A stretch of DNA of 64,000 bases. It comes from Alteribacillus sp. YIM 98480. Lineage in GTDB: Bacteria > Bacillota > Bacilli > Bacillales > Marinococcaceae. The DNA is taken from assembly GCF_009765375.1 (NCBI RefSeq), contig NZ_VTOK01000001.1, forward strand, positions 1-64,000. The letters are read 5' to 3'. The translations under genes and the position numbers were made by a program. Positions 7,735 through 55,797 of the stretch are shown one piece after another. The notes under the pieces are model-generated. The model did no database searches. It saw only the letters and a list, made by a program, of their open reading frames with translations, and was not told where the DNA came from. Every line of letters starts with the position of its first letter. Position 1 is the stretch's first letter.

Positions 7735-8229
7735 ATGGAGGATTCTAAGGAAATTCCCTGGGGTGTTCTGCTTTTGTTCGGGGTGGTCTTACCATGGCTG
7801 CAGGTTTCACTGCGACCGGTCTTTCCGGTTGGATTGACAAGCAATTACAGGTATTTGAAGGATGAACTCTATTATTATTGTTCTTGTATCTACCGCTGTT
7901 GTATTGTTCCTCACAGAAATTACATCGAACATGGCAACAGCTACAATGATTCTTCCGGTGGTAGCTTCATTAGCAATTGCATTAAACATTCACCCATATG
8001 CACTGATGGTACCGTGTGCGATGGCTGCAAACCTCGCGTTTATGCTTCCAATTGGAACACCGCCGAACGCTATTATATTGGAACAGGGAAAATAAGAATT
8101 CTTCAGATAGTTAAAAATGGATTTTGGATAAACATGATTGTAGTTGTGCCAATTGTTTTATCAGTCTATTTTATCCTTCCTGTCCTCTGGGATATCAATT
8201 TACAAGAAATCCTGGATGGAATTCAATAA
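7735..8229 (+). pseudogene. DASS/SLC13-type Na+:dicarboxylate transporter, decayed C-terminal part
   Basis: Pieces in three frames rebuild about 160 residues of a SdcS-like transporter: KEIPWGVLLLFG, then GFTATGLSGWIDKQLQVFEG, then a stretch with TEITSNMATATMILPVVASL and FMLPIGTPPNAIILEQGK, then the last helix ending LQEILDGIQ. At least three frame breaks are needed (near 7785, 7863 and 8093), and the N-terminal two thirds are missing. It cannot be functional. It lies right behind the intact symporter, so the locus once encoded two dicarboxylate carriers. Confidence 0.85.
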
Positions 8230-8363
8230 AATCTGTATATCAAACACATCTGATGATGTTTTGGCAACACGGTCATTTTCGGGTAAAAGATGATAGATCA
8301 GTCTTGCAACGATAGCAGTCACAAAACTCGCTTAAAATTAAAATAACGAAAGGAGGAACAGGA

Positions 8364-8521
8364 ATGAAGATGTTTGAAATTGCAGTGTTATCCCTGGTGA
8401 CGGTATTGGTAGAGTGGTAGTTCCTTTCGCTCTAAATGTTCAGAATACTCTTTCATAAGTGCATGGAGGTTTGCGATTCGAAACGACTCAATTTGATTGC
8501 AGACTCACATTAATTAAGTGA
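8364..8521 (+). pseudogene. Tartrate dehydrogenase/decarboxylase (TtuC-like) N-terminal remnant
   Basis: After an AAAGGAGGAACAGGA ribosome site the frame reads MKMFEIAVL, then after a frameshift PGDGIGRVVVPFALNV, then after a deletion HGGLRFETTQFDC. These match, in order, the nucleotide-binding start of the isocitrate/isopropylmalate/tartrate dehydrogenase family (the PGDGIG motif) and the segment some 30 residues later. More than 90 percent of the gene is absent. Assignment to the tartrate subgroup rests on wording of these short motifs and on context. Confidence 0.65.
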
Positions 8522-8537
8522 GCAGAAAGGAGAAAAA

Positions 8538-9301
8538 ATGAGTGAACCACGATTTTTCGTACCCAATCGGATTGATGAGGAAGTCATTCAATTTTTGCAG
8601 CAAAATATGGCAACGTAGAATATCGTAATAAGGAAGAAAAGATATCTGAGGGGGAGTTTTTGGACGGTTTGAGCAAAGCAAACGCTCTTTTATGTTATTC
8701 GAGACAAAAGATTAACGATAGAATTCTTGAGCGAACTCCGCTACTCAAGGTAGTATGCAACATCGCTGTTGGCTACGATAATCTTGATCTTGGAGAATTG
8801 ACAAATCGGGGAGTAATGGCAACGAACACTCCCGGCATTTTAACGGAAACGACAGCCGACCTTACTTTCAGTATTCTGATGGCAGCTGCTAGAAGAGTAG
8901 CTGAAGCGGATCATTATGTTAAATCCGAACAATGGCAGGAGTGGTTTCCTAGTTTGATGCTTGGCAAGGAAGTATTCGGGGCAACAATAGGGATTATTGG
9001 CATGGGAAGAATAGGGAAAGCAGTAGCGCGCAGGGCAAAAGGCTTTAATATGAAGATCCTTTTTTATAACCGTTCACACAAGACGGATATTGAAGAGAAG
9101 TTAGGAGCGAAGTACGTTTCACTCAAGCAGCTTCTTCAAAAATCGGACTACGTTGTTGTTTTGACCCCGCTTACCGAAGAAACAAAAAAAATTATAGGAG
9201 CAAAAGAGTTTGCTTTAATGAGGAGGGATGCAATTCTAGTCAATGCCTCCAGAGGTGCTACGATTGATGAAACAGCCTTAATCCATACCTTGCAGGAATG
9301 A
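8538..9301 (+). pseudogene. D-2-hydroxyacid (glycerate/hydroxypyruvate type) dehydrogenase, frameshifted and truncated
   Basis: The frame begins MSEPRFFVPNRIDEEVIQFL at an ATG with an AAAGGAG site. It then needs one frameshift near 8605 to continue as KYGNVEYRNKEEKISEGEFL and into a good Rossmann domain (GATIGIIGMGRIGKAVARRA). The VNASRGATIDETALI motif with the catalytic Arg is present, but translation stops right after it. The last 65-70 residues, including the catalytic Glu and His, are gone. The family interconverts glycerate and hydroxypyruvate or reduces glyoxylate, which fits tartrate breakdown through glycerate. Confidence 0.85.
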
Positions 9302-9427
9302 CGATGGATCTGTGAAAGAGGCGTTAATTAAGAAAGAGGGAACGGCAGTGAGGCGGGAGAAAGCTACTGCTGGAAAAATTGAAGAATAAGAAGAAAGAGC
9401 AGGGCTGAGGCCTTGCTCTATTTATTA
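9302..9427 (+). terminator. Unrecognised short frame, then a terminator at 9397-9427
   Basis: Bases 9300-9390 read DDGSVKEALIKKEGTAVRRE and a few more codons to a stop; I do not recognise it and it may be the tail of a deleted gene. AGAGCAGGGC pairs with GCCTTGCTCT (9397-9420), followed by an A/T-rich run, closing the tartrate-type region. Confidence 0.6.
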
Positions 9428-9640
9428 ATCGTACCGATATTTAGCAGTTTTTAAGGGAGCTTCTAAAGATAACAAAAGGTAAGAAGAAGGGCAGTACTTG
9501 CAGAAAAAAGGAAAGCCCTTTCTTATTTTTAAAATGGTTTAAAAAAGACATTTATCTGCTAATCCCTATAGTATAAGGAGTGTAAGAAATGGTATGCATG
9601 GGAATGGCACCTAAATTTATCAAATAATTTTAAAAACCGT

Positions 9641-9669
9641 TTGACTAATGAAGTGTAATGGCTTACACT
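9641..9669 (+). promoter_or_regulatory. Promoter with palindromic operator for the inositol-type cluster
   Basis: TTGACT (9641-9646) and TACACT (9664-9669) are 17 bp apart. AGTGTAATGGCTTACACT (9652-9669) has perfect seven-base arms and covers the -10. A further AGTGTAAG half-site lies near 9579. The LacI-family protein at 10.8 kb is the likely binder. The remainder of 9428-9736 shows no gene. Confidence 0.6.
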
Positions 9670-9736
9670 CCTTAATTAAGGAAAGAACTTTCCTTTTTCA
9701 TTATCAATTAAATATTCAAAATTCAGGAGGCGGGTT

Positions 9737-10756
9737 ATGAGTGAACTTAACATAGGTTTGATCGGTGCTGGGAGAATGGGAGCTTTTCATGGAGAGACTA
9801 TCACTGATCGTATTCCACAGGCTAATTTGTATGCGATTGCAGACCCAATGCTGGGCGCAGCTGAAAAGTTAGCACAACAACTAAATAAAAATTCAAAAGC
9901 ATACACGGCTCCGCTTGATTTAATTAATGACGAAAATGTCGAGGCAGTAGTGATTGCTTCCCCTGCTCGTACACATGCCAGCAATGTGCTTGCTGCGATT
10001 AGACAAGGGAAAGCGGTATTTTGTGAGAAGCCGATGGCTGTCAATATGGAGAAAGCCGATGAAATTGTACAGGCTTTAGAGAAAAGCAACACGTTGATGC
10101 AAGTTGGGTTTAACCGAAGATTTGAAAAAGGTTATAATGCTGCTCATGAGGAGGTGAAAGCAGGTTATATTGGGACTCCGCAATTGTTGAAATCAATTAC
10201 AAGAGACCCTAAGTTAAACGGAGCTGAATCGATTCCTGAATGGACCATTTTCTTAGAGACATTAATTCATGACTTTGATGCCTTAAGATACTTAAACCCC
10301 GGGGCAAAACCTGTAGAAGTTTACGCTGCTGCAGATGCATTGGTCCGGCCGGACCTAAAAAAGAGCGGGTTATTAGATACTGCTGTCGTGACAATAAAAT
10401 TTGATAACGGAGCATTAGCTACAGCGGAAGCTAATTTCCAGGCCGTTTATGGTTATGACGTTAGAGCGGAGGTCTTTGGTTCAGAAGGCATGATGACGGC
10501 AGGAGGAATACGGGAATCTAGTATGACAAGGTATAACAAACAAGGCATCAGCTATGATACGAGCCGTTATGACCAGAATCTGCTGTTCGATGCGTATGTA
10601 GATGAATTGCGATCTTTTACAGATTGTGTCCTTAACAATAAGACACCATATGCAACGGCTGAAGATGCCAGATGGGCGTTGAAAATCGCACTGGCAAGCA
10701 TAGAGTCGGTACAAAACGATCGTCCGGTTAAGATCGAAAATTATGCGTTAATTTAG
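9737..10756 (+). CDS. iolG: Inositol 2-dehydrogenase-type oxidoreductase (Gfo/Idh/MocA)
   Basis: Predicted to oxidise an inositol or related cyclitol/sugar to the keto form with NAD(P)+. The N-terminal Rossmann fold has GLIGAGRMGAFH (residues 7-18), and the EKP motif that carries the catalytic Lys is at about residue 95 (CEKPMAVNMEKAD). The VGFNRRFEKGYNAAHEEV stretch is characteristic of the IolG group, and 339 residues fit B. subtilis IolG (344). An AGGAGGCGGG site precedes the ATG. It is followed by a LacI regulator, an epimerase and a sugar symporter, a layout typical of a polyol or rare-sugar operon. The true substrate is not fixed by sequence. Confidence 0.8.
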   Translation: MSELNIGLIGAGRMGAFHGETITDRIPQANLYAIADPMLGAAEKLAQQLNKNSKAYTAPLDLINDENVEAVVIASPARTHASNVLAAIRQGKAVFCEKPMAVNMEKADEIVQALEKSNTLMQVGFNRRFEKGYNAAHEEVKAGYIGTPQLLKSITRDPKLNGAESIPEWTIFLETLIHDFDALRYLNPGAKPVEVYAAADALVRPDLKKSGLLDTAVVTIKFDNGALATAEANFQAVYGYDVRAEVFGSEGMMTAGGIRESSMTRYNKQGISYDTSRYDQNLLFDAYVDELRSFTDCVLNNKTPYATAEDARWALKIALASIESVQNDRPVKIENYALI

Positions 10757-10842
10757 TAGCATAAACTAGAACGCTGCTTTCTCCATATAGCCAAACCATT
10801 GGTTGAATGAACAAGGCAGCAAATGAAAGGGGGAAGCTTATT

Positions 10843-11850
10843 ATGAAAGTAACGATCTATGATGTAGCGGAAAAGGCGAAGGTGGCCATATCGACTGTTT
10901 CCAAGGTACTCAACGAGAAAGGAAATATTAATGAAAAAACAAAGCAGCGGGTGTATGACGCGATAGAGGAATTAGGTTACAAACCTAGCGTTGTTTTGTC
11001 GGTAAAAAAAGCCATGAAAACAATTGGGGTATTAATACCTGATATATCTAACCCATTCATGGCTGAAGTCACTCGGGCGGTCGAAGACAGTGGGCGAAAA
11101 AGAGGATTCAACGTCATCATCTGTAGCACGGATAATGACCCTGATAAAGAAGAGGAGCATATTGCCATGCTCCAGCAAAAGTATCTAGATGGGATCATCA
11201 TCGCAACAGGCTTAAAAAATAAGCGTGCACTTCAAAAGTTGATAGACAGTAAAACTCCGGCTGTACTGCTTACACGGGATGTTCCGCATCTTCCAGTACA
11301 TGCGGTAATGGTTGATGACTTTCAAGGAGGGTATGAAGCAGGGACATTTTTAGCACAATCAGGCCACACAGAAGTTGCTATGATCGTTGAAAATATAGGT
11401 GTTCCTTCGATAGAGCAGCGTCTAGTAGGATTCAGAGAAGGATTGCAATCGTTAAATGTACCATTAAATGATGAGCGTGTCGTCTACTCTTCTCACAGCT
11501 TAGCAGAAAGTAAAGAGGCAGGGCTTCAATTATTGTCTGAAGCAAAGAGGCCGACTGCAGTTTTTACTTCTACGGAAATACTGGCCGTTGGCGTCATGCA
11601 GGCAGCAAAGGAATTAGGGTTAAAAATACCGGAAGATTTATCGGTTATTGGATTTGATAATAGTATCCTAGCTCAAATTACTAATCCGCAGTTGACAACT
11701 ATTGCCCAGCCGGCTCAGCAAATGGGTGAGAAAGTTATTGAGTTATTTGTAGAAGAAGTGATTAATACCACTAAAACAGATAAAGTGATACAGCGCATCG
11801 TATTATCCCCATCACTCATTGTGCGGGAATCCACTGCAGAAATTGAGTGA
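10843..11850 (+). CDS. LacI/GalR-family transcriptional regulator
   Basis: It is probably the local repressor of the cluster it sits in. The N-terminal helix-turn-helix reads TIYDVAEKAKVAISTVSKVL with the hinge helix around residues 50-60, followed by a periplasmic-binding-protein-like sensor domain beginning TIGVLIPDISNPFMAEVTRA. The C-terminal domain includes LSVIGFDNSILAQITNPQLT, the usual effector-domain signature. The start is set at the ATG at 10843, with AAAGGGGGAA nine bases upstream; an earlier in-frame ATG at 10807 would add twelve residues before the DNA-binding helix and lacks a ribosome site. The effector is unknown. Confidence 0.88.
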   Translation: MKVTIYDVAEKAKVAISTVSKVLNEKGNINEKTKQRVYDAIEELGYKPSVVLSVKKAMKTIGVLIPDISNPFMAEVTRAVEDSGRKRGFNVIICSTDNDPDKEEEHIAMLQQKYLDGIIIATGLKNKRALQKLIDSKTPAVLLTRDVPHLPVHAVMVDDFQGGYEAGTFLAQSGHTEVAMIVENIGVPSIEQRLVGFREGLQSLNVPLNDERVVYSSHSLAESKEAGLQLLSEAKRPTAVFTSTEILAVGVMQAAKELGLKIPEDLSVIGFDNSILAQITNPQLTTIAQPAQQMGEKVIELFVEEVINTTKTDKVIQRIVLSPSLIVRESTAEIE

Positions 11851-16064: not shown

Positions 16065-16709
16065 TTATTTTTTAAACTTCTCTGGAAACTGTTTCACAAC
16101 TCCCTCAGATATAGCATCTGCCATTAAGATTATATGTGTAATCCCTTCATCAATCGCAACAATTCTTTCATCCCATTTTTTTTCTAAGCTTGCTAATAAG
16201 TCATCTGTTACCAATTCTAAATGCATATACAGCAATTTTTTTAAATCTTCATTTTTGAAATTTGGGTTGGCACCACTAAGGAACGCCGCTATATCATCAG
16301 CATTTCTATACCATTCTTTGTTTAGCTGATTTACCATGTCTTCGTTTCCATTTTTAGCGGCATCTACGATTTTGCCAGCAATAACAATATGTTCTTTGGG
16401 CAAATCTGTAAGTTTGTTCCCTGCGTCTTCTCCGTATACCGGTTTCACAGCATTTCCTATATCATCCTGATTTCTCAGAAGTCTTGATAGAACTTGTTCT
16501 TGATCCTCCGCTCCTGCTGTTGTTGCACTTGTAATATAATTACTGGTCCACAATACATGATCAATCCAAAGTCTCCTGAATTCATTTTTGAACTTCACCT
16601 CTGATTGACTAATACATTGTTCTTGTGTGTTAGCAGTGACACTAATTGCCCCAGGCAGCATGTTTAGCATAAATACTAAAATTAATGACGTAAACAAAAA
16701 TCTTTTCAT
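16065..16709 (-). CDS. Secreted protein of unknown function, 214 aa
   Basis: The start is the ATG at 16709 (GGAAGGAG eight bases before it), giving a clear signal peptide MKRFLFTSLILVFMLNMLPG with cleavage probably after ISVTANA-like residues near position 25. The mature part is helical and carries the segments FRRLWIDHVLWTSNYITSA, NQDDIGNAVKPVYGEDAGNK, LPKEHIVIAGKIVDAAKNGN and KEWYRNADDIAAFLSGANP. I recognise this as a family common in Bacillaceae, sometimes misnamed in databases, with no established function. The regular helix pairs and conserved His and Trp residues suggest a four-helix bundle. No metal or heme motif can be assigned with confidence. Confidence 0.75.
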   Translation of the reverse strand: MKRFLFTSLILVFMLNMLPGAISVTANTQEQCISQSEVKFKNEFRRLWIDHVLWTSNYITSATTAGAEDQEQVLSRLLRNQDDIGNAVKPVYGEDAGNKLTDLPKEHIVIAGKIVDAAKNGNEDMVNQLNKEWYRNADDIAAFLSGANPNFKNEDLKKLLYMHLELVTDDLLASLEKKWDERIVAIDEGITHIILMADAISEGVVKQFPEKFKK

Positions 16710-16730
16710 CAAATTTACTCCTTCCAGCAT

Positions 16731-17328
16731 AACAAGTTCCTTCCTATTATTGTTTTAATGAATTTTTTCATTCGTCAAAGTCACTTTATTGGAAAGAATA
16801 ATTATATATAAAATTTATTTACTATTAGAAAACTTAATGGGGTGTTCAAATATTATTTATACTAATTCTAGTAAAGGGAGCGAATATTCAATAAGGAGTT
16901 GTTTGCCTTGAGCACCATATAACAAAATAAAAATTTTTACGAACGAACAAATAGATTAGCATTCGTCTTTTTAAAAAGGGAAGAAAGCATAAATTTTTGG
17001 CGTTTTACATGTCTAGCGCAAGCGCCTACTCGCTCGAGATTCCTTCGGTCCGTCAATGGAAAGCAAAGATCAGCTTTCCATATGCAGCCTCTCCAGGACT
17101 TGTCGCTCGTGAGCAAGGCGCTTGCGCTTTTCTTATTAAAACAAGCAATTATGAAATTGATTCTAATAATAATTCTTTCTCGCTAAGATTGTCCTTATCT
17201 GGTCCAGTTCTAGGAATGTCAAAAATTTGTTGTTTTGCTACACATAAATATTTAAACAATGTAGAGAAGACATTTGATGGGAGGTTTTTAGTTCGATTTA
17301 GTTATGTAATCATTAGTAAACGGTACAA
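16731..17328. other. Intergenic stretch containing a structured repeat; no supported gene
   Basis: Apart from the repeat at 16996-17140 nothing recognisable was found. A 115-codon plus-strand frame (16997-17344) is mostly the translated repeat and has no ribosome site, so it is not called. Confidence 0.5.
17016..17127. repeat. Dispersed palindromic Bacillaceae repeat
   Basis: GCGCAAGCGCCT (17016-17027) is the inverse of AGGCGCTTGCGC (17116-17127). Inside are the CTCGAG...TTCCTTCGGTCC core and a nested GGAAAGC/GCTTTCC stem. The pattern (TCTAGC...GCGCC...CTCGAG...CGGTCCG...GGCGCTT) is one I know from many Bacillus-group intergenic regions; function is unknown. Confidence 0.65.
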
Positions 17329-51092: not shown

Positions 51093-51400
51093 ATGAAAGT
51101 CATGGTGATTGGCAGTGGAATTGTTGGAGCGAGTGCAGTCTACCGTTTGGCTAATAAGAAAATCGAAGTCTTATTATTAGAGCAACAAGGAAATGCCAAA
51201 GCTGCTGGTGCAGGGATTGTATGTCCATGGATATCTAGAGTTGAAGATAAAAATTGGTATGAAATTGAAAAAAATGCAGAGTATTATCCAGAGCTCATGT
51301 CCTAGTTGTAAGACAATGGTGAAAAGAATGTCGGCTTTATTAAATCCACCTATTTGGAGAGGCTTGTCAAGGCCGACCAACGCGATAGCGTAAGTGGTCC
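51093..51400 (+). pseudogene. FAD-dependent amino-acid oxidase-type gene, N-terminal remnant
   Basis: The start MKVMVIGSGIVGASAVYRLA and LLLEQQGNAKAAGAGIVCPW is the FAD-binding beta-alpha-beta unit of the DAO/DadA family. The frame stops at 51305; weak continuation (DNGEKNVGFIKSTYLERLVK) in another frame follows, then homology is lost. Over 80 percent of a usual 370-residue enzyme is missing. Confidence 0.75.
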
Positions 51401-51687: not shown

Positions 51688-52245
51688 TTATTTCTTGTTA
51701 AAAAGTTTCGCCACTTCTTCTATGAGTAAAGGGTACAAAGGAAATGCCATTAATCGGTTTTCTAATACATTCACAAGGCTTTCATAATACCATTTCTGCT
51801 TCTCTTTTCCTCTGTTAAATTGGTTCCAAATGTTTTCACCAACTTGCTCAAAATCTGTAACGGTCTCTCTGATGTTATGTAATTTGTCCGCACATGTAAC
51901 CATACACACTTCAATCGGGGCTGTGCTTAAAAAATCAAGCGTTTGTTGTTTTCTATCCTCCCACATCAATGATTTATTTTCTGTGCATCCCTCGACAATA
52001 GAAGTCACACGCTCACCAAATTCTCTTTGTACATCACTTTTCGTGATGGAAGTATCTTCTATCGTATCGTGCAAAATGCCCGCTATAATAATATCCTCTT
52101 CGCAGCCTGATTGACTAAGAAGCATCCCCACTGCATAAGAATGTGTAATATACGGTAACTTATTTCCTTTTCGTACTTGATTTCGATGCGCTTTAGCAGC
52201 AAAGTGAATAGCTGAATTAAGTGTATCCAGCTTTAATAAATCCAT
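51688..52245 (-). CDS. HD-domain hydrolase resembling small alarmone hydrolases (Mesh1/SpoT hydrolase domain)
   Basis: Predicted Mn2+-dependent hydrolase, by resemblance able to remove pyrophosphate from (p)ppGpp or a related nucleotide. From the ATG at 52245 (a GTG at 52254 is the alternative) the metal-site residues fall at His35 (YITHSYAVG), His59-Asp60 (ILHDTIEDT) and Asp120 (TCADKLHNIR), with the Glu63-Asp64 pair that SpoT-type hydrolases use. HRNQVRKGNKLPYITH is the usual substrate-side opening. It lacks any synthetase domain; 185 residues equals a stand-alone hydrolase. It lies 25 bases behind the kinase-EAL gene on the same strand, so the two are probably co-transcribed. Activity on another nucleotide cannot be excluded. 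Confidence 0.8.
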   Translation of the reverse strand: MDLLKLDTLNSAIHFAAKAHRNQVRKGNKLPYITHSYAVGMLLSQSGCEEDIIIAGILHDTIEDTSITKSDVQREFGERVTSIVEGCTENKSLMWEDRKQQTLDFLSTAPIEVCMVTCADKLHNIRETVTDFEQVGENIWNQFNRGKEKQKWYYESLVNVLENRLMAFPLYPLLIEEVAKLFNKK

Positions 52246-52270
52246 AATGACCACAACCTATTGTTTTTTA

Positions 52271-54208
52271 TTATGATTTTATCAGTTTTGAGTGAAACCC
52301 TTTCACCCATTCCTTTACAGGTATTTCATCAACTAAACAAGGGCGAGAGAAATAAAAGCCTTGTCCATAATTTATCCCCAAGTTTATTGCTTTCTTGATT
52401 TGATCAGGATTCTCTATTTTTTCAACAATAAACTCTATCTTTTCAAACGTACTCAGGTTACTTTCTTTGTTTTGTTCTATATAATGTTTTATAGCCCTAG
52501 GACCATACTTATCAATATCATCAATAACAACTTTAATATAATCAGGTTTCATTTTTAAAACTTCTTCCATCGAAGATTGCTTTCTTCCAAAATCATCAAT
52601 TGCGGTCGAAAATCCTTCTTCATCAGCCATTCCCCGCCAAATATAGGCCAGGGCTTTACGCTCATACTCGGTAACTTCAATAACAATTTGTTCTCCGCTT
52701 TTTAATAACTCTTTAATTGACTGCTCTAAGATCGGCAATGTTAAGTCTGCTTCTAAATTTACAAATATACCTTTATTTACAAAAGGTTTAATGTAATCTA
52801 CTTTATCAATAAGCTTCTCACATCCAAGTATTGTTAGAGAAGAAAGTTTATTATGGTCTCTGGCTATTTGAAAAATTTCATCAGGCATAAGTATTTCCTC
52901 TGGGTCCCGGCATAAAAACTCAACGGCATCCACTTGACCCGTTTGTAAATGAACGATTGGCTGAACAGCAAAGTTAAGGTCTCGAGTTTTTAATATTTCA
53001 AGCAAACGATTTACTTTTTTGCTGTAAATATCTTTTTGCATAGAATTATCATTAGTTGGTGCCGGCTTAGGCCAATCCAACGGAATTCCCTGTTCATTAG
53101 GCAAATCTAAGTCAATTTGTTCATGTTTAATGGCAGCTTCTAAATTATAAGCTGTATATATAAATGCTGCAAATTTCTTAAGTGGATCAGGCGTTTTACG
53201 AACGAAATTCAACCCAGCAGCCACACCTGCTAAATAATAAGAAGGTTCGCATAAGGATAGGAAATGTTCATCAGTAAATTGGTGACGAAGTGCTTTTCTG
53301 ATGGAAGTAAAAAAAGTCCTTAAAATGAGGCTCCCTTTCATATTCGGAATATATGGATCTTCATTTAATTTCTTCGTTAACCCAGAACATAATTGATGCC
53401 AAAATTGTCTTTCTGCCTCTGTGTTAAAAGATAAATAATCCATTAATAAATGGAGTTCTAAGTATCTTTCATCATAAAATATATTGGTGTTATTTTGGTA
53501 CTCAGCAAAATCAATAATGGAAAAAGATTTATTGTTTAAAATAATAATGTTATTTCCATGAAAGTCGCCGTGACTATCAGCAATAGTACATTCAATCCAA
53601 GAGTTCTGCCATAATGATTCATGTGTAAAAAATTTAGCAGGGTTAGGAAAAATCATTCCTGATTCATTAAATTTAATAAAGTTATCGTCTGTACTGATGT
53701 TTAATTTTTTAAAAGCCTTTAATAGTTTATGGTCCATAAACCTATAACCCATTGTTTGCTTAACTAGATCAAAAGGTTTCATACTATCATCATTATGTTC
53801 TTCGTTCCAATTATATATAAATTCGGAAATTATTGGGGTTACTGACTCGAGATATTCGTCGTTTTCTTCAGTTAAAGCATTATTTAACGTATAACTTTTA
53901 CTATTTCCTGCAAATTGATATAACACTCCATGCCAATTATCTACTTTTTTATAATCAATAATTTTGGGAATAAATAATTCTTTATTATTTTTTTTGGCGA
54001 CAACATTTCTTGCTTTATTATGTACCTCTGCTTCTATGGTTTCATCGCTTTGTTGCTTTTCTATTTTAACAACAGCAGTACTTCTTTTCATTCTTACAAT
54101 ATAGACTTGGGCGCCGGATTTACCGTCGGTTAATGGAGTAATAATCCTCCTTGGTTTTGGATCAAAATTGAAACGGTCTAAAAACTCCTGCTCTTTTTCA
54201 TACGGCAC
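52271..54208 (-). CDS. Fusion of an aminoglycoside-phosphotransferase-like kinase domain to an EAL domain
   Basis: A 645-residue cytosolic protein with two parts rarely seen together. Residues about 20-340 look like an APH/choline-kinase fold: Lys48 in STAVVKIEK, the catalytic loop HGDFHGNN (213-220) and the metal Asp233 in SIIDFAEY. Residues about 395-640 are an EAL-type cyclic-di-GMP phosphodiesterase: Glu430 in the EAL position (VEFLCR), Asn in FVNLEADL, Glu in IEVTEYER, Asp538-Asp539 in IDDFG, and the YGQGFYFSRP end. Metal and catalytic residues appear mostly kept, with E-F-L replacing E-A-L. The GTG start follows GGAGGTGTAAGG. No membrane helices. Its kinase substrate is unknown. Confidence 0.82.
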   Translation of the reverse strand: MPYEKEQEFLDRFNFDPKPRRIITPLTDGKSGAQVYIVRMKRSTAVVKIEKQQSDETIEAEVHNKARNVVAKKNNKELFIPKIIDYKKVDNWHGVLYQFAGNSKSYTLNNALTEENDEYLESVTPIISEFIYNWNEEHNDDSMKPFDLVKQTMGYRFMDHKLLKAFKKLNISTDDNFIKFNESGMIFPNPAKFFTHESLWQNSWIECTIADSHGDFHGNNIIILNNKSFSIIDFAEYQNNTNIFYDERYLELHLLMDYLSFNTEAERQFWHQLCSGLTKKLNEDPYIPNMKGSLILRTFFTSIRKALRHQFTDEHFLSLCEPSYYLAGVAAGLNFVRKTPDPLKKFAAFIYTAYNLEAAIKHEQIDLDLPNEQGIPLDWPKPAPTNDNSMQKDIYSKKVNRLLEILKTRDLNFAVQPIVHLQTGQVDAVEFLCRDPEEILMPDEIFQIARDHNKLSSLTILGCEKLIDKVDYIKPFVNKGIFVNLEADLTLPILEQSIKELLKSGEQIVIEVTEYERKALAYIWRGMADEEGFSTAIDDFGRKQSSMEEVLKMKPDYIKVVIDDIDKYGPRAIKHYIEQNKESNLSTFEKIEFIVEKIENPDQIKKAINLGINYGQGFYFSRPCLVDEIPVKEWVKGFHSKLIKS

Positions 54209-54284
54209 ACCTTACACCTCCAAATTGCTCCAAATTAAAATTTATTATTAAAGATTTTTCGTGAAAAACGTTTATCTCATCATA

Positions 54285-54290
54285 TATAAT
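54285..54290 (+). promoter_or_regulatory. Possible -10 element of the membrane protein gene
   Basis: TATAAT at 54285-54290 lies within the 132-base divergent gap, some 50 bases before the start codon. A convincing -35 partner at 16-18 bases is not seen. Confidence 0.35.
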
Positions 54291-54340
54291 ACATTAAGAG
54301 ACTATAAAAATAATAAAAAAGACATATAGGAGGGGGAAAA

Positions 54341-54994
54341 ATGGCAAAAACAACGACGATGTTTATCGAACACATTATTAATGGCTTTCATTTTTTACTA
54401 TCTTTAATCTTATTTGTCCTTACCATTACAGGGTTTCAATTGATTGAACTGAACACTATTAAATCTTTTATGATGAATGGGGGACTTATTTCTCATTTCA
54501 TTTTTCTTCTGCCTACCATTTATACACTAGGACTGATAATAGATAATTTAGTGGACGATAAAATTTTTGAAAAGCAAGAAAAAAAGTTGAGAAATAAGTA
54601 CATTTCCGATAAATCACATTCAGGCAGAAAATTAATTATGCTGTCCAAAGATGATAATCAAAGGCGGCAGTTAGATTATATCAGAACGAAAATTAGAATT
54701 ACTAGAACAGCAAGCTTTAATTTTGGTTTGCTAACATTCCTCTCGCTCTTATTTACGACCATTCATTTACGGGGGGTCCTGGATGGGTATTTAGTATTGT
54801 TTATTGGGTTAGAAGCAATAGTAGGTGGTTTATTGACCTATTTAGCTTATTGGTCTTGGAAGAGTAATACAAAAACATATTGTAATCGAGTTGTTGATGG
54901 TTTTAAAATACTCCAACTAGAGCAGCCTAAACGAGAACATAAACAAATGGAGTCAGAAGATGAAACAGATAGCTATAATTTGTTTGACGTATAA
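54341..54994 (+). CDS. Four-helix membrane protein of unknown function, 217 aa
   Basis: I do not recognise a family. Hydrophobic segments lie at about residues 16-36 (HFLLSLILFVLTITGFQLIE), 48-68, 123-142 and 147-168. Between helices 2 and 3 is a charged cytosolic-looking loop of about 55 residues rich in Lys and Arg (FEKQEKKLRNKYISDKSHSG, IRTKIRITRTASF), and the C-terminus is acidic. AGGAGGGGG precedes the ATG. It is transcribed divergently from the kinase-EAL gene with 132 bases between them, so a shared control region and a functional link are possible but unproven. Confidence 0.7.
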   Translation: MAKTTTMFIEHIINGFHFLLSLILFVLTITGFQLIELNTIKSFMMNGGLISHFIFLLPTIYTLGLIIDNLVDDKIFEKQEKKLRNKYISDKSHSGRKLIMLSKDDNQRRQLDYIRTKIRITRTASFNFGLLTFLSLLFTTIHLRGVLDGYLVLFIGLEAIVGGLLTYLAYWSWKSNTKTYCNRVVDGFKILQLEQPKREHKQMESEDETDSYNLFDV

Positions 54995-55237
54995 AATTTT
55001 TTCATAGGAGTAGGATAAAGCTTCTCATGAGGTTTACTTACACTTGTGGGAAGTTTCATCTTTTATTTCTTTGTTTATTCGCTTCATATTCAAAACCAAG
55101 CAAAACTTTTACCAAAGTTTATAATATAATTTACACAATTTTCTAATTCTCTAATGTTTCCTTTCCGTTTATGAAAATGATTTAAGAAACAAAATACATA
55201 TTCGAACGAGACCGTTGATCATCTATCTGCAAGAAAA
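54995..55237. other. Intergenic with integrase tail; otherwise no gene
   Basis: Apart from the integrase tail at 55019-55085 the sequence is A/T-rich. CATAATGTAATTC-like text near 55130-55180 resembles the activator gene at 56.35 kb (TTCTAATTCTCTAAT and TTTATGA), so a small fragment of an AAA+ gene may have been copied here. Confidence 0.4.
55019..55085 (-). pseudogene. Tyrosine integrase C-terminal tail (copy 4)
   Basis: The minus strand reads RINKEIKDETSHKCK and, after a one-base shift, LMRSF. This parallels KK-x-K-K-E-T-S-Q-K-F-S-x-L-M-R-S in the copy at 32.9 kb. It is the most eroded of the four. Confidence 0.55.
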
Positions 55238-55748
55238 AGAGAGAAGGCATTTAAAGAGGATCTGAAAGGGTTACCCCGCAAGATCTCCTCTTAAAATGCT
55301 GGGGATGCGGTAAGCGTATAAAGTACAACATGATCTGGAAAAGAATGAACGCATTCGAATGAAGCGAAGCAAAAAACTATTGTGGAATTGAGTCTACAAA
55401 TTATCAGAAGAAGAACGACAAAAGGTCAATCAAATACTCCAGAGCGATTCACGGTTACAGGAAGCTTATGAGGTAAATTATAGGAATGATAAATTAATGA
55501 GAGCAATAAAAACACTGCAGCACAAGGGCTTGAGGAATGTCTGTTCCCTAATGAAAGCTTCAACTATTGAGGCATTTTACAAGGTGATAAAAACATTTAA
55601 ACGTTGAAAGCAAGAGATTCTACAGTCATTTATGTACCCGTTCAATAGCGGGTACATGGAAGGTTTGAACAACACCATTAAAGTGGCAAAACGTATGTCC
55701 TATGGAATTAAAGTCTTTGAACGATTGAAAAAGAAAATATTGTGGTGA
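55238..55748 (+). pseudogene. ISL3-family transposase, decayed C-terminal part
   Basis: Several frames together give VNQILQSDSRLQEAYEVNYR, then STIEAFYKVIKTFKR, then FMYPFNSGYMEGLNNTIKVA, KRMSYGIKVFERLKKKILW and stop at 55748. The F-x-N-G-Y-x-E-G-x-N-N-x-I-K-x-x-K-R and the final FERxxxxIL are the C-terminal catalytic signature of ISL3 transposases. There are at least three frame breaks and the N-terminal zinc finger part is lost. Confidence 0.8.
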
Positions 55749-55797
55749 CAAATGGTGAGAAAGATTCTAGCCTAAATAGGAATAGTTTACCTAGTAG

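Follow-up and report, generated by a model that had tools for sequence, protein, structure and literature searches.

The window analyzed here is a stretch of 64,000 nucleotides from Alteribacillus sp. YIM 98480 (NCBI RefSeq assembly GCF_009765375.1, contig NZ_VTOK01000001.1, positions 1 to 64,000). It carries three neighboring genes, for a protein that joins a kinase-type domain to an EAL domain, for a small alarmone hydrolase (SAH), and for a membrane protein. This three-gene block is genuine and conserved, and is no accident of a single strain. An earlier note, made from the sequence alone, had called three open reading frames here, and all three stand at the coordinates it gave:

51688..52254, minus strand: SAH (Pfam HD_4; RelH/MixSpo-like); 188 amino acids from the GTG at 52254 or 185 amino acids from the ATG at 52245.
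52271..54208, minus strand: kinase-EAL fusion, 645 amino acids (Pfam and AlphaFold2).
53039..54208, minus strand: TCAD9 kinase-type domain, the N-terminal half of the fusion (residues 1-390), with G29-K30-S31, K48, E59, HGD at 213-215, N220, and D233.
52274..53038, minus strand: predicted EAL phosphodiesterase domain, the C-terminal half of the fusion (residues 391-645), with E430, N484, E511, D538, D539, K559, E596, and Q616.
54209..54340, no strand: divergent intergenic region, a 132-base gap, with TATAAT at 54285-54290.
54341..54994, plus strand: membrane protein, 217 amino acids; no Pfam match for the window's member of the family.

The ATG of the SAH gene lies 25 bases past the stop codon of the fusion, as the earlier note had it, and the alternative GTG lies 16 bases past it. 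Because the spacing is so short, the two genes probably share one transcript. The membrane gene is divergent from this pair, also as described before. The surroundings of the TATAAT in the gap are similar in the sister species Alteribacillus persepolensis (locus L010, compared by eye). The site matches 10 of 12 consensus positions, and the region holds 16 such sites versus 17.5 in shuffled sequences, so the scan alone is no evidence for a promoter.

Of 397 genomes sampled within the order, five, belonging to four genera, had a match to the kinase domain. The membrane protein is present in the same five genomes, adjacent to the kinase each time, and the SAH lies within the block in four of them. 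Among 29 genomes of the family, only the window's genome and A. persepolensis (G003) had kinase matches; the third genome of the genus (G002) had none. Scanning GTDB genome contigs with an alignment of the kinase gave 12 loci, of which five encode full fusions, including one from a second Fictibacillus, which brings the full-length fusions to six counting the window. A search of the phylum with the kinase profile (398 genomes) returned the window's own fusion and four short, distant matches only. The module is rare and patchily distributed among Bacillales, and it has presumably moved horizontally. We also considered a phage or plasmid origin, and rejected it on searches of viral contigs, phages, and plasmids. 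The membrane protein had no relative in viral contigs or plasmids. The kinase had none in viral contigs or phages, and its sole plasmid match was a distant protein from Ruegeria.

At all six distinct loci that we read (the window, A. persepolensis, Peribacillus sp. Bi96, F. solisalsi, F. enclensis, and Bacillus sp. 165), the membrane gene and the fusion lie in one block, and at five of the six the SAH is in the block as well. The arrangement varies. In both Alteribacillus genomes, the membrane gene is divergent from the fusion and SAH, while in both Fictibacillus it is convergent with them. In Peribacillus, the SAH gene is convergent with the membrane gene, and the fusion lies 1 kb further on. 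In Bacillus sp. 165, the fusion is convergent with the membrane gene, and the SAH gene is found elsewhere on that contig, at a distance of about 380 kb. Because the block stays together while its order and orientation change between lineages, we argue that these genes are functionally linked. The possibility that the fusion and SAH genes are neighbors in this strain only did not hold up: the neighborhood is kept in other genera and families.

All three genes are under purifying selection. The order of the genes is the same in A. persepolensis, with identities of 81% (fusion), 77% (SAH), and 80% (membrane protein). Between these two genomes, the nonsynonymous and synonymous divergences (dN and dS) are 0.11 and 1.34 for the fusion, 0.13 and 0.66 for the SAH, and 0.10 and 0.70 for the membrane protein, which gives dN/dS of about 0.08, 0.20, and 0.14, respectively.

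The linkage also bears on a metabolic explanation, in which the two halves of the fusion act on a metabolite, the kinase by phosphorylating it and the EAL domain by cleaving it, with the SAH and the membrane protein as travelling bystanders. Small molecules are the usual substrates of APH-fold kinases, and the SAH is missing from the block in Bacillus sp. 165. However, none of the 397 genomes searched had the membrane protein but not the kinase, and the SAH has stayed in the block through rearrangements at five of six loci. We consider a salvage pair very unlikely.

Some loci have features of their own. In both Fictibacillus, closely similar proteins (L012:8510-9271 and L016:7152-7913) are encoded directly upstream of the fusion on the same strand, and the first of these has a Pfam CBS match (7.7e-8). 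Adenine nucleotides are frequent ligands of CBS domains. In Peribacillus, near-alike pieces of one major facilitator superfamily transporter gene (L011:1542-2720 and 16634-16945) bracket the module region, as if the segment had been inserted or duplicated.

By sequence, the N-terminal half of the fusion is a distant member of the TCAD9 family (Pfam, 1.5e-13, 51.2 bits versus a gathering cut-off of 40). All five fusions that we scanned pass this cut-off (51.2 bits in the window, 50.4 in L010, 60.0 in L013, 55.4 in L015, and 51.6 in L017); the scan left out the F. enclensis fusion, and the best-matching stretches span positions 255-349 of 429 only. The earlier note had called this an APH/choline-kinase-like domain. 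The kinase type and the intact active-site residues stand, with Lys48, HGDFHGNN at 213-220, and Asp233 all where the note placed them, but the domain passes the cut-off for TCAD9 and not that for APH (PF01636; 19.0 bits in the window versus a gathering score of 23.2). The HGD...N and D residues resemble those of the kinase superfamily. Eleven positions, including G29-K30-S31, K48, E59, H213-G-D215, N220, and D233, are identical in all six fusions as printed, and in five of the six for the row of positions that was read. The K, HGD, N, and D are also kept in four distant relatives (L019-L022), and E59 is kept in two of the four.

In the AlphaFold2 model of the fusion (mean predicted local distance difference test score, pLDDT, of 82.9), K48 lies in a strand and E59 in the helix after it, and the loop with HGD falls between strands, as does D233; this is as in kinases (secondary structure read by eye). 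The kinase half had no good relative of solved structure by sequence (best E = 0.013). When the model was compared to solved structures, the 50 entries shown were all taken up by the EAL half, so this search excludes no kinase family of the PDB. Against predicted viral structures (BFVD), the top match of the whole model was Gp311 of Bacillus phage G (2e-8), which has no named function. Lower matches were mostly to proteins named as protein kinases, with a choline kinase further down; these alignments are loose (root-mean-square deviations mostly above 8).

Relatives of the kinase outside the order have other partner domains. Those from alphaproteobacteria have C-terminal TPR matches, with TCAD9 just below the cut-off. 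Because the kinase is N-terminal in the TPR-like and nSTAND-like relatives, which would be the usual place of an effector, it is likely to be an output enzyme or an ATP-gated switch. Two of the alphaproteobacterial kinase-TPR proteins (L019:7848-10529 and L036:5896-8397, the latter with TPR below the cut-off) are laid out like class III cyclase-TPR proteins with a kinase in place of the cyclase (judged by eye). Two further proteins from the same phylum (L037:5583-7931 and L038:5575-7941) have an N-terminal STAS domain above the cut-off and a C-terminal TCAD9 domain that scores well beyond its own cut-off (1.3e-75 and 2.5e-63). The L037 kinase adjoins a SpoIIE phosphatase and a HATPase_c_2 protein, which hints at a partner-switching circuit.

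TCAD9 (PF19974) stands for "ternary complex associated domain 9". The name of this kinase-like domain comes from bacterial conflict systems. We also considered that the block might be an anti-phage or inter-bacterial conflict module, with the kinase as the effector or trigger and with the EAL and SAH enzymes destroying cyclic or pyrophosphorylated nucleotides of invaders or toxins. A few active APH-type kinases are mentioned among the effectors of ternary conflict systems in a passage of Kaur et al. 2020 (PMC7159879), and a passage of a 2021 paper (PMC8195603) lists small-molecule kinases among such effectors; PMC10910872 has the name TCAD9 in a figure legend only. The module's patchy distribution fits as well, as do the Clostridial relatives with kinase and nSTAND-like parts, one of which lies near a type II restriction enzyme and another near a type I restriction-like gene (the latter judged by eye). 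However, for the window's genes PADLOC gave only a weak AbiTi match (0.12, to the fusion), and it gave none for the kinase proteins of four relatives; a match to PADLOC-DB tells of described systems only, and an undescribed system would give none. Nor do the flanking genes point to conflict: we rejected membership in a vWA-MoxR-VMAP ternary system, as the 10 flanking proteins in the window have no vWA or VMAP match (Pfam, 1e-5) and the AAA matches fall only in two sigma-54 activators. Instead, the window's flanks carry phosphotransferase system (PTS), regulator, peptidase, and ABC-transport genes. (The flanks of the other five loci were checked for core conflict genes by eye only.) The absence of relatives from viral contigs and phages, with one distant relative on a plasmid, also argues against this explanation. 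A role of the window's module in defence is possible by analogy with its distant relatives; as an account of the whole block, we think it unlikely.

In one Lachnospiraceae locus, the kinase-nSTAND relative is split over two overlapping frames (L023:7394-8053 and 7923-11741), so it is broken or misassembled. We dropped a DisA-like reading, made by eye, of the protein at L023:11926-13365, which had no match in Pfam, NCBIfam, or PADLOC.

The C-terminal half of the fusion is an EAL domain (Pfam EAL, 3.2e-26) whose catalytic residues are intact, including Glu430 and Asp538-539 at the positions noted before. E430, N484, E511, D538, D539, K559, E596, and Q616 are identical in all six fusions and align with the same residues in PdeA (3s83; alignment read by eye). 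We take these positions to have the metal-binding, substrate-binding, and catalytic roles that they have in the EAL literature. The predicted fold matches solved EAL enzymes, with Z of 19.3-22.4 across the 50 entries shown and the highest (22.4) to 4lyk (VIA-align). The c-di-GMP phosphodiesterases YahA, MorA, and PdeA are among the top-tied folds. EAL proteins act on nucleotide signals, and from its sequence and model this half should be a working phosphodiesterase.

The SAH belongs to the HD families only (Pfam HD_4, 5.2e-20), so it has no synthetase domain. H38, H62-D63, E66-D67, D123, and N127 (numbered from the GTG) are invariant in the four SAHs that we aligned. Among solved structures, its profile is nearest to Lmo0812 (4yf1, 2.2e-42) and RelH of Corynebacterium glutamicum (7qoc, 1.2e-41; also 7qod), followed by RelH of L. 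levettii (7qoe). Structures of Mesh1 score far lower (3nqw, 4.3e-19; 3nr1, 5.9e-18). So of the earlier description of a Mesh1-like alarmone hydrolase, the alarmone-hydrolase type and the HD motifs remain, but the protein is nearer to the SAHs of the RelH/Lmo0812 type than to Mesh1. A passage of PMC10434055, on Treponema, places Lmo0812 and the RelH proteins of C. glutamicum and L. levettii in a MixSpo/RelH family, and relatives of the SAH likewise act on nucleotide signals, according to parts of PMC9765508 and PMC10434055. Elsewhere, matches are less specific: the best partial NCBIfam matches (spoT_relA for the SAH and the EAL protein RimA for the fusion) are far below their cut-offs, and PHROGs gave generic HD and EAL-type families only.

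SAHs are common in the order (139 of 397 genomes at E = 1e-30). All five genomes with the fusion carry one (Fisher p = 0.005 against this background, ignoring kinship). We built a tree with 33 rows, namely 30 loci listed out of the 139 genomes and a few others; one row is a long-branch fragment of a long Rel protein. In this tree, the five SAHs of the module group with the SAH of Bacillus sp. 165 and a second SAH from F. solisalsi in a clade of nine rows (support 96/94), of which only two are from non-carriers.

We could not assign the membrane protein to a known family: it has no sequence match among solved structures, other members have scattered weak Pfam matches (best, Arv1 at 0.0046 in two of six), and NCBIfam gave only MSC_0882 at 0.0033, far below the cut-off. 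The motifs IEHxxNGFHF, YTLG, DxNQxxQLDxIRTKIRITR, and YWSWxxNT are kept across the family. "Unrecognised", as the earlier note put it, remains apt for the window's protein; its four helices fit an all-helical model but are only plausible, given the poor quality of that model (pLDDT of 63.5). Because this membrane partner was never seen without the kinase, its presence suggests recruitment to, or sensing at, the membrane.

If the EAL domain degrades c-di-GMP, then one expects a source of c-di-GMP in the cell. Three of the five carriers lack an intact diguanylate cyclase (G000, G003, and G323), and it is present in the other two (G297 and G390). The only GGDEF match in the window's genome is broken, in two frames with an internal stop (G000:C1:201020-201435; about 5050-5520 of L041). 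A. persepolensis has a single weak GGDEF match (5.2e-5), within a 656-amino-acid protein that for most of its length matches NF011110, a putative bifunctional signalling protein (3.9e-133, 445 bits, below the cut-off of 707) and is GdpP-like by our reading. The genome of F. solisalsi, which is rated 100% complete, has no match to GGDEF or PilZ and no other EAL match (HD-GYP and other c-di-GMP receptors were not searched for). Each of the other carriers has a second EAL gene, and Peribacillus has a further fragment. As a control, 339 of 343 genomes from the order have a GGDEF match at 0.001. By a hand count, 11 of the 343 have none better than 1e-20, and two of these are carriers; with the three carriers in this sample removed, the non-carriers without a strong match number 9 of 340. 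The difference between carriers (3 of 5) and non-carriers (9 of 340) has a Fisher p of 3e-4, which is inflated by kinship.

These results bear on the earlier note's own explanation, in which the fusion is a c-di-GMP phosphodiesterase of the ordinary kind whose regulatory domain, a kinase, is unusual, and in which the SAH couples the decay of c-di-GMP to that of the alarmone. The fusion does have the residues of active EAL enzymes and the fold of YahA, MorA, and PdeA. Two carriers have good GGDEF matches, and one of them, Peribacillus, is the only carrier with a PilZ protein. However, this explanation does not fit F. solisalsi, the broken GGDEF gene in the window's genome, or the weak match in A. 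persepolensis, and we view it as unlikely. The genes for a kinase-type domain, an EAL domain, and an alarmone hydrolase do share a conserved neighborhood, but the proposed link from c-di-GMP to ppGpp turnover is doubtful, because three of five carriers lack an intact diguanylate cyclase and F. solisalsi has no other GGDEF, EAL, or PilZ protein. For the same reasons, the substrate of the EAL half may not be a pool of c-di-GMP made by the cell itself.

Instead, we propose that the block encodes a membrane-associated module for the clearance of nucleotide signals, in which the kinase is a partner or gate. The signals may have sources outside the cell's own c-di-GMP network. We give this proposal a probability of about 0.5. 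The membrane protein would anchor or activate the kinase-EAL protein at the membrane. The kinase domain would bind ATP and either phosphorylate a small molecule or read ATP and gate its partner. The EAL domain would cleave a cyclic or linear (di)nucleotide, and the adjoining SAH would remove 3'-pyrophosphorylated nucleotides such as (p)ppGpp or pppApp. Jointly, the three proteins might clear nucleotide alarm signals, be it in recovery from stress, in defence against nucleotides of foreign origin, or for a private messenger. We favor this proposal because the two outputs, of a phosphodiesterase and of a hydrolase of pyrophosphorylated nucleotides, both remove nucleotide signals.

Several observations weigh against our proposal. 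SAHs also occur without the fusion (134 of 392 non-carriers), the SAHs of the module do not form a clade by themselves, and a shuffle test among the labelled rows of the tree found no clustering. In Bacillus sp. 165, no SAH lies beside the fusion, so the SAH may be optional to the module. Good GGDEF matches number two in Peribacillus sp. Bi96, which also has a partial one, and one in Bacillus sp. 165. Also, the contrast in GGDEF is partly a clade effect: two of the carriers are from one genus, and family members G007, G010, and G016 also lack a strong match. Finally, the model of the membrane protein is poor, and physical contact between the proteins is a conjecture.

A related idea, which we think quite unlikely, is a private circuit of kinase and phosphodiesterase at the membrane, combined with removal of the alarmone. 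The EAL domain would then cleave a messenger other than c-di-GMP that is made without GGDEF, and the kinase would make, modify, or sense this messenger.

Beyond the block, the 10 flanking proteins (43.9-61.5 kb) are those of a PTS operon of the mannose/sorbose type, which has a sigma-54/PRD regulator and a SIS-domain protein, together with a further sigma-54 activator, a peptidase of the M20 type, and permeases for peptide transport. At 51093-51320 is what appears, by eye, to be the decayed start of a FAD-dependent oxidoreductase; an intact relative adjoins the A. persepolensis module (L010:5025-6251). Beside the membrane gene, at 55200-55750, are transposase-like remnants with several stops (by eye), and insertion sequences may once have visited the region.

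We found no description in the literature of the kinase-EAL fusion, the membrane family, or the module, as judged by titles and the openings of abstracts. Each enzyme domain is already known. An EAL domain is taken almost as a matter of course for a c-di-GMP phosphodiesterase. In this module, one with a complete set of catalytic residues persists without a visible diguanylate cyclase in some carriers, and it is tied to a kinase of the conflict-system type, an alarmone hydrolase, and a membrane partner found nowhere else in our sample. Once found, its substrate would reveal a new nucleotide signal or show how such bacteria deal with foreign c-di-GMP. It would also offer a biochemical handle on the TCAD9 kinases.

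The closest known systems each resemble one part of the module. The RelH/MixSpo SAHs (RelH of C. glutamicum, RelH of L. levettii, and Lmo0812) match the window's SAH over most of its length, including a C-terminal stretch with a WYY region. Unlike them, the window's putative SAH sits in a block with the fusion. The EAL c-di-GMP phosphodiesterases YahA, PdeA, and Lmo0131 have their fold and set of catalytic residues in common with the fusion, but the fusion has an N-terminal kinase domain and three of its carriers lack an intact diguanylate cyclase. With TCAD9, the fusions share a catalytic block of PNP, HGDxHGNN, and IDF. However, in contrast to the conflict setting of TCAD9, the window's kinase is fused to an EAL domain, and no vWA, MoxR, or VMAP genes lie beside it. 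The Clostridial relatives (L020-L022, about 1400 amino acids) have a kinase of the same family, with TCAD9 below the cut-off, followed by nSTAND5 and TPR matches that are also below the cut-off. These proteins and the STAS-TCAD9 proteins (L037 and L038) differ from the window's fusion in that their kinases have other partner domains and other neighbors.

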